In this document: piece by piece, positions 8,357 through 10,213 of the stretch
Numbering within the stretch: the first letter of the stretch is position 1
How the letters are laid out: each line of letters begins with the position of its first letter
Source: Gammaproteobacteria bacterium
GTDB taxonomy: Bacteria; Pseudomonadota; Gammaproteobacteria; SZUA-229
DNA length: 34,336 bases
Assembly (NCBI GenBank): GCA_026197015.1
Contig: JAPHRB010000078.1
Location: 1-34,336 of the forward strand
Direction of reading: 5' to 3'
Made by a program: the position numbers and the translations under genes
The notes under the pieces: generated by a model
Told to the model about the DNA's origin: nothing
Database searches by the model: none
The model's input: only the letters and a program-made list of their open reading frames with translations

Positions 8357-9217
8357 TTAAGCTTCAAGACAGTTTCGCAATTTTTTCATCGCATTTTTTT
8401 CTAACTGACGAATGCGTTCAGCAGAAACATCGTATTTTGCAGCCAGTTCATGAAGAGTTGCTTTTTTGTCATCATTCATCCAGCGAGACATTAAAATATC
8501 ACGACTTCTTTCATCAAGCGTCTGCAGTGATTCAGTTAGTGCTTCACTTCGCTGCTCCTGCCAGTCATTTGATTCTAGCTGTTGGGCAGGATCATGAGCC
8601 GGGCTTGCCAGGTAAGTAGATGGAGCGAGCATTGCGTCATCGTCATCATCTGAAGTAGCATCAAAAGCCATATCATAGTTACTTAGGCGTGACTCCATTT
8701 CCAGTACGGTCTCAGGTTTAACGCCAAGGTCTTTAGCTACACCTTCAACTTCTTCCGGTGTAAACCAGCCTAGACGTTTTTTAGAGCTACGTAAGTTAAA
8801 AAATAGTTTACGTTGAGCTTTGGTAGTGGCTACTTTAACAATTCTCCAGTTTTTCAGTACATATTCATGAATTTCAGCACGAATCCAGTGAACTGCAAAT
8901 GAAACCAGCCTTACATTATGATCAGGGCTGAAGCGCTTAACTGCCTTCATCAGGCCAACATTACCCTCCTGAACCAGATCAGCCATTGGTAGACCATAAC
9001 CCTGATAACCACGGGCGATGCGAATAACAAAACGAAGATGAGACATAATCAATTTTTGTGCAGCTTGAAGGTCTCCATGTTCAGACAGGCGATAGCCATA
9101 CTCACGTTCTTCCTCTGCTGTAAGCATAGGAAAAGCTTGTGCATTCTGAATATATTGATCCAGGCTGCCGCTCGAAATAGGCAGGTGGTTATTTGCAAGT
9201 ACCAGTTCGTTTGACAT
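8357..9217 (-). CDS. rpoH: RNA polymerase heat-shock sigma factor (sigma-32)
   Basis: Directs RNA polymerase to heat-shock promoters such as those of chaperones and proteases. The length, 286 residues, matches E. coli RpoH (284). Region 2 reads [18 protein letters not shown] and [20 protein letters not shown]. The RpoH-specific box [18 protein letters not shown] is intact, which distinguishes it from RpoD and RpoS. Region 4.2 is the C-terminal [27 protein letters not shown] serves as ribosome binding site. A perfect CIRCE operator begins 27 bp upstream of the ATG, pointing to HrcA repression. The gene is the last in the ftsY-ftsE-ftsX cluster but has a terminator after it and probably its own promoter. 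Confidence 0.97.
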
Positions 9218-9243
9218 ATTAGCTCCAAAGTTCTGTGTTTATA

Positions 9244-9270
9244 TTAGCACTCTTTTGTTTAGAGTGCTAA
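9244..9270 (-). promoter_or_regulatory. CIRCE operator (HrcA binding site) in front of rpoH
   Basis: TTAGCACTC, nine bases, then GAGTGCTAA: an exact match to the consensus CIRCE element bound by the heat-shock repressor HrcA. It lies 27 bp upstream of the rpoH start codon. A possible -10 hexamer (TATAAT on the minus strand, 9315-9310) sits about 40 bp further upstream, which would put the operator in the transcribed leader, as at other CIRCE genes. The promoter is tentative; the operator is certain as sequence. Confidence 0.93.
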
Positions 9271-9352
9271 TGCCTGTATAAGTTCCAGCTAATGTATGAA
9301 ATGATGTTTATTATAAGGGAGAAAGTGGCTTGAGGGGCCGGCAGATCAGGGT

Positions 9353-10213
9353 TTACTGGATCATGGTGAGAGAGTTGTCAGGGTGATGAATCTCTAAATA
9401 CTGTTTTCGCAGCATTAACAAGTTGTTAAGTCTGGCGATTAACATAGCTTCACCTACGGGTTTCTCAAGAATATCATTGGACCCGGAGGAGAAGATTCGG
9501 TTCAATCCGTCAGGGTCTGCATCGAAATTACTAGAGGTGGTTACAAGTATAGGAAGCTGCTCATAACCCAGTCCGAGACCATGGCGAATTTCGCGAATAA
9601 GATCTCTTCCGCTCATATGTCCTTCGAGTTGTATGTCTGTCAGGAGTAAATCAAAGGGTTGAATATTGTCTTTACTGAACGAATGTTGAATATGTTGTAG
9701 AGCCTGTTCGGCATTTATGGCATGCAGGTAGTTATAGTCATGTTTGCTAAGCAAATTTTTTGTGGCAAGGGCTACAGTGGCGCTGTCTTCAACATATAAA
9801 ATATTACCGGTAATCATGGCGTTGGGCGGCTCTGTATTCAAAAATGAATTAATATAGTCGACCAGCTTTTGTTGCCCAAGTTTTTTATCAAAGTAACCAT
9901 TTACCAGATTGCAGGCCATTTTTTCTTCATAAATGCCCATTTTCTCACCGGATATAACAATCAGAGGGGTATTTCTTACACCCAGGTCTGTGCGAATTTT
10001 GTTTATCATTTCATGACAGTCGATGTCAGGCAGGTTTCTGGAGGATGTAATTAAGGCGTATTTGTGTTCAACCAGCAGGCGAAATGCCTCATCCACATTC
10101 ATGGCGGCATCCACGATAACATTGGGAATGTTTTTGGCAATCAGTTTGCTAATAATAGCCAGACTGGTGCCTGAATGGTCGATAAGTAGAACCCGCTGTG
10201 CTGCTGATGACAT
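9353..10213 (-). CDS. Response regulator with two receiver domains, no output domain
   Basis: The 286 residues are made of two CheY-like receiver domains. The first (about 5-125) begins RVLLIDHSGTS, but the phosphorylated Asp is replaced by Ser in ALITSSRNLPDID, so it probably cannot be phosphorylated. The second (about 138-275) is intact: ILYVEDSATVAL with the acidic pocket, phosphoacceptor Asp in LLLTDIQLEGHMSGRD, VTTSS, and the conserved Lys in EKPVGEA. No DNA-binding, GGDEF or HD domain follows. It is likely a phospho-relay or protein-interaction regulator. The gene is inserted between ftsX and rpoH, a place where relatives normally have nothing. It could be co-transcribed with either, but 295 bp separate it from ftsX. 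Confidence 0.88.
   Translation of the reverse strand: MSSAAQRVLLIDHSGTSLAIISKLIAKNIPNVIVDAAMNVDEAFRLLVEHKYALITSSRNLPDIDCHEMINKIRTDLGVRNTPLIVISGEKMGIYEEKMACNLVNGYFDKKLGQQKLVDYINSFLNTEPPNAMITGNILYVEDSATVALATKNLLSKHDYNYLHAINAEQALQHIQHSFSKDNIQPFDLLLTDIQLEGHMSGRDLIREIRHGLGLGYEQLPILVTTSSNFDADPDGLNRIFSSGSNDILEKPVGEAMLIARLNNLLMLRKQYLEIHHPDNSLTMIQ

Follow-up and report, generated by a model that had tools for sequence, protein, structure and literature searches.

Sigma-E control of rpoH, the gene encoding sigma-32, is known from Escherichia coli, and the textbook account of sigma-32 control rests on this species, where hrcA is absent. According to the accessible part of one source, the E. coli rpoH promoter P3 is the promoter through which RpoE was first found (PMC8103513). 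A CIRCE, the operator of HrcA, was predicted at rpoH of Geobacter sulfurreducens in 2004 (PMC545781, accessible part). The accessible parts of PMC10696704, PMC9866376, PMC13377108, PMC11764788, PMC8103513, and PMC3224663 do not report a CIRCE at rpoH. Here, we describe a CIRCE at rpoH in the window, the whole stretch of 34,336 nt that was analyzed, which comes from a marine gammaproteobacterium represented by a 75% complete MAG.

CIRCE and predicted promoter elements upstream of rpoH

A sequence-only reading of the window had placed a perfect CIRCE before rpoH, and both the site and the gene were confirmed. Positions 9244–9270, read on the plus strand, are TTAGCACTC-TTTTGTTTA-GAGTGCTAA, with 0 mismatches to CIRCE; we annotate them on the minus strand as a predicted HrcA binding site of the form TTAGCACTC-N9-GAGTGCTAA. 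This is the sole match with ≤3 mismatches in the window. Because shuffled versions of the window gave a mean of 0.04 matches at this threshold, the perfect copy is not due to chance. The gene that follows (8357–9217, minus strand) encodes sigma-32, a protein of 286 aa that matches TIGR02392 (rpoH_proteo) with 411.6 bits (cut-off 323). It contains QRKLFFNLR, a motif known as the RpoH box, and chaperone and protease control of the RpoH protein may therefore be retained. Its ribosome-binding site, assigned from the sequence, is GGAG (9223–9226, minus strand), located 5 nt before the ATG, and the gap between CIRCE and ATG is 26 nt.

Upstream of rpoH, the same strand carries a response-regulator-like gene (9353–10213, minus strand), followed by ftsX and ftsE and, at a greater distance, ftsY. 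Since the gene immediately upstream of the CIRCE is co-directional with rpoH, rpoH is the gene that the CIRCE can serve. The product of the upstream gene has 286 aa, two stretches of which match response-regulator receiver domains; the gene stands between ftsX and rpoH, which are adjacent in E. coli.

The CIRCE is interlocked with predicted promoter elements that were absent from the sequence-only reading. GGAACTT (9280–9286, minus strand), a predicted sigma-E -35 element, lies 9 nt upstream of the CIRCE. The predicted sigma-E -10 element, TCTAA (9259–9263, minus strand), straddles the border between arm and loop of the CIRCE: its first two bases end the left arm, and its other three open the loop. 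Together, GGAACTT-N16-TCTAA has the form of a sigma-E promoter (GAACTT, a 16-nt spacer, and TCNNA), and its GAACTT-N16 spacing is the same as that of P3 in the DNA upstream of E. coli rpoH (GAACTTGTGGATAAAATCACGGTCTGA). The genome to which the window belongs also carries the sigma-E gene, rpoE (TIGR02939, 321 bits, above the cut-off); in the genus, a simple pattern detected no sigma-E-type promoter before rpoE. Because the predicted sigma-E promoter overlaps the CIRCE, the HrcA site would work alongside an E. coli-type sigma-E input and not instead of it.

At the 3′ edge of the CIRCE, TAATAT (9241–9246, minus strand) is a possible overlapping sigma-70 -10 element, and TTAGCA (9265–9270, minus strand) would be a weak sigma-70 -35 element at an 18-nt spacer. 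A sigma-70 consensus scan did not list this pair. When the mRNA of the rpoH 5′ region was folded, no clear thermosensor emerged.

Conservation at rpoH and dependence on hrcA

The site recurs in relatives, a check that the sequence-only reading had proposed. Usable DNA upstream of rpoH was available for 28 family members: all 28 carry a CIRCE (≤2 mismatches) there, 26–53 nt from the rpoH match, and all 28 have GAAC exactly 15 nt before it. We also scanned GTDB genomes without reference to rpoH, using the exact pattern GAACTT-N9-CIRCE with the loop left free, and recovered at least 118 loci. The specificity for rpoH was observed directly, with rpoH immediately downstream (tblastn) in 114 of 118 loci among the matches listed. 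One non-rpoH match (L175) is the CIRCE of an opposite-strand rpoH, read in reverse. Two incomplete loci (L119 and L114) hold the beginnings of RpoH-like reading frames, and a third (L130), a putative rpoH locus at most, has an upstream reading that resembles the ftsX side of other loci. Named records belong to the gamma- and betaproteobacteria, for example Alcanivorax, Methylomonas, Thioalkalivibrio, Silanimonas, Rhodocyclaceae, and Chitinilyticum; unclassified Proteobacteria MAGs are also among the matches. A predicted HrcA operator at rpoH is thus widespread and not a local oddity. A degenerate pattern combining CIRCE with the GYGLP codons of rpoH was dropped, as it missed about one third of the loci. 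Three loci, L116, L161 (Catenovulum), and L205 (G046), have a second CIRCE-like sequence, partial or complete, in tandem with the rpoH CIRCE.

Across the 118 loci among the matches listed, loop bases 1–3 are biased to T, A/C, and A (0.65, 0.27, and 0.84 bits), and bases 4–8 are flat, near 0 bits. Loop position 3 is A in 82 of these 118 rpoH loci (69%), versus 8 of 42 groES sites (19%; p = 2e-8). Compared with groES CIRCE loops, bases 1–3 are therefore selected as T-A/C-A only at rpoH. The three bases 3′ of the CIRCE are likewise conserved in the 118 listed loci, as A/T-A-T with up to 1.42 bits, which would fit an overlapping sigma-70 -10 element.

HrcA control presupposed an hrcA gene in the genome, and the gene is present, interrupted by a contig break only. 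A profile search with PF01628 gave matches at the ends of two contigs, C55 and C108. These ends share the 16-nt sequence CAATACCCGCCTCAGA, so the split arose in the assembly and does not mark a damaged gene. By sequence, the longer piece is related to the solved HrcA structure 1STZ. On C108, hrcA is followed by grpE, dnaK, and dnaJ. No CIRCE was found before hrcA or anywhere on C108 (best 7–8 mismatches), and a sigma-32-type promoter, CTTGAATCTTAATTGATTAGCCCCAT, lies between hrcA and grpE (about position 7044 of C108, minus strand). The 75% complete MAG yielded no second CIRCE at ≤3 mismatches, and groES is absent from the assembly. Each of four genomes of the same genus has two CIRCE sites (≤2 mismatches), one at rpoH and one, perfect in all four, at groES. 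For this genus, we therefore predict a direct HrcA regulon made up of groES(L) and rpoH.

Dependence on hrcA was observed directly across the class. Among 276 genomes drawn from it, the composite of GAACTT and CIRCE (≤2 mismatches allowed) occurred together with hrcA in 106 and alone in 1, with 99 having hrcA only and 70 neither (Fisher p = 4e-17, only a guide because genomes of the same family are not independent). Composite-positive genomes number 107 or 108, and a few of the matches are reverse readings of a CIRCE. We followed this up in the rpoH upstream regions of 38 hrcA-positive genomes without the strict composite and 24 hrcA-negative genomes, chosen from the better rpoH matches and not at random. 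A CIRCE (≤3 mismatches) was present at rpoH in 34 of the 38 hrcA-positive genomes versus 2 of the 24 hrcA-negative genomes (p = 1e-10). Many of the 34 have the sigma-E motif at a slightly shifted spacing, or a sigma-E -10 just upstream of the CIRCE, and a minority of genomes show no recognizable sigma-E motif at rpoH.

In hrcA-negative lineages, the CIRCE is mostly gone, and the predicted sigma-E promoter often survives. Several such genomes have lost the right arm and retain GAACTT-N16-TC..A and even GGCACTC, which resembles the left arm, a pattern that loss of HrcA with sigma-E control retained would be expected to leave. In L270, L280, and L284 (family f70, hrcA-negative), the left arm TTGGCACTC is kept inside the sigma-E promoter and the right arm is lost.

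There are exceptions. One genome has the composite with no hrcA found (G119), and two keep a 3-mismatch CIRCE without hrcA (G103 and G218). G052 has a CIRCE at rpoH and no hrcA match; G185, of the same genus, has hrcA. In G100, the composite (L324, C8:46800-49500) precedes a ClpB-like reading frame, and its rpoH has no CIRCE. G049 has hrcA and a groES CIRCE and no CIRCE at rpoH. The marks of an HrcA/CIRCE regulon are found at rpoH: a CIRCE in the promoter region, hrcA in the same genome, and conservation in relatives with loss alongside hrcA. The sequence-only reading had placed sigma-32 below HrcA, and the presence of hrcA, the conservation of the site, and its tracking with hrcA across the class all argue for this order.

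Proposed control of rpoH by HrcA and sigma-E

We consider it very probable, on these comparisons, that HrcA occludes a sigma-E-driven rpoH promoter and so joins envelope-stress and GroEL/HrcA inputs. From the elements and their distribution we infer HrcA binding, repression, feedback from GroEL, and use of the promoter by sigma-E. In other bacteria, HrcA is known to be controlled by GroEL. In the proposed scheme, GGAACTT-N16-TCTAA, corresponding to E. coli P3, would act as the sigma-E-type promoter of rpoH, with the left CIRCE arm supplying the first bases of the -10 element. Free GroEL would keep HrcA active, and HrcA bound over the -10 and start region would block sigma-E RNA polymerase, as well as any sigma-70 polymerase that uses the 3′-edge TAATAT. 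Once GroEL is taken up with unfolded protein, HrcA would leave the DNA, releasing groESL and rpoH together, so that rpoH output would be set by sigma-E activity (envelope) and by loss of HrcA (cytoplasm). Sigma-32 would then drive grpE-dnaK-dnaJ. Because the dnaK operon has a sigma-32 promoter and no CIRCE, HrcA would reach it only through sigma-32. Counting against the proposal, some genomes have the CIRCE just downstream of the sigma-E -10 element and not on it. The minority with no recognizable sigma-E motif, as well as G119, G103, and G218, also count against it.

HrcA might instead repress rpoH only through a sigma-70 promoter whose -10 element is TAATAT, with GAACTT not serving as a sigma-E -35 element. 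In nearly all loci among the matches listed, the CIRCE overlaps at its 3′ edge with TAAAAT, TAATAT, or a close variant, and TTAGCA could act as the weak -35 element at 18 nt. However, a GAACTT at fixed distance has no reason under sigma-70, the loop bases fit TCNNA, and GAACTT is kept in several hrcA-negative genomes. Moreover, E. coli P3, which has GAACTT-N16-TCTGA, is sigma-E-dependent (PMC8103513, accessible part). We therefore regard exclusive use of sigma-70 as improbable; the conservation of TAA-A/T-AT along the 3′ edge of the CIRCE suggests a possible partial contribution of a sigma-70 promoter beside sigma-E.

The inverted repeat could also act in mRNA, as a 5′ stem-loop for rpoH mRNA stability or translation, and not as a DNA operator. 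In Bacillus, an effect of CIRCE at the mRNA level has been reported, and the CIRCE here forms a perfect palindrome near the start codon. However, the predicted transcription starts lie inside or downstream of the CIRCE, and transcripts would therefore lack the left arm; in addition, the exact CIRCE sequence is kept, not pairing alone, and it is lost along with hrcA, which makes a role in mRNA very unlikely. Least credible of all is a relic, with HrcA no longer of consequence at rpoH and the left arm surviving solely for its share in the sigma-E -10 element. Some hrcA-negative genomes, in which the left arm TTGGCACTC persists without the right arm, would fit this reading. However, the right arm, although no part of the sigma-E promoter, has no mismatch in the window, in any of the four genomes of the same genus, or in many hrcA-positive genomes of other families.

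Comparison with known systems

The proposed occlusion of a sigma-E promoter by HrcA at rpoH has partial counterparts elsewhere. The groESL CIRCE of the same genomes is the same operator and presumably binds the same repressor. Unlike the rpoH site, it follows a TTGAC...TAT-type promoter and has different loop bases, and in the genomes inspected its -35 position lacks GAACTT.

Permina and Gelfand (2003) reportedly cover beta- and gammaproteobacteria. The literature searched, in its accessible parts and with that study and RegPrecise outside it, gave no description of a sigma-E promoter and a CIRCE at rpoH as one composite. G. sulfurreducens resembles the window in having a perfect CIRCE upstream of rpoH (at position -51 there) and in the predicted place of HrcA above sigma-32 (PMC545781, accessible part). 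In contrast to the window, it is a deltaproteobacterium, the one species in that study; it also has a CIRCE at hrcA-grpE-dnaK-dnaJ, an operon at which we found none here, and the accessible text describes no sigma-E promoter at its rpoH (PMC545781).

E. coli P3 shares GAACTT-N16 with the window, followed there by TCTGA, and the order of ftsX then rpoH. Unlike the window, it has no CIRCE, and an hrcA search of the E. coli control genome gave no match. P3 is one of several rpoH promoters and lies some 50 nt farther away from the start codon. On balance, we lean toward the view that a three-tier circuit, in which rpoH is driven by a sigma-E promoter that contains an HrcA operator, is the majority and probably the ancestral form of sigma-32 control in hrcA-bearing Gammaproteobacteria (betaproteobacteria included), that this composite has so far gone undescribed, and that P3 is a remnant left after loss of hrcA and the CIRCE arms. 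If this holds for most hrcA-bearing gammaproteobacteria, chaperonin load and envelope stress would meet at one promoter, HrcA would govern the DnaK branch only via sigma-32, and the origin of E. coli-style control would become a concrete, testable story of loss. By comparison with the window, the arrangement in E. coli looks pared down through loss of the repressor.
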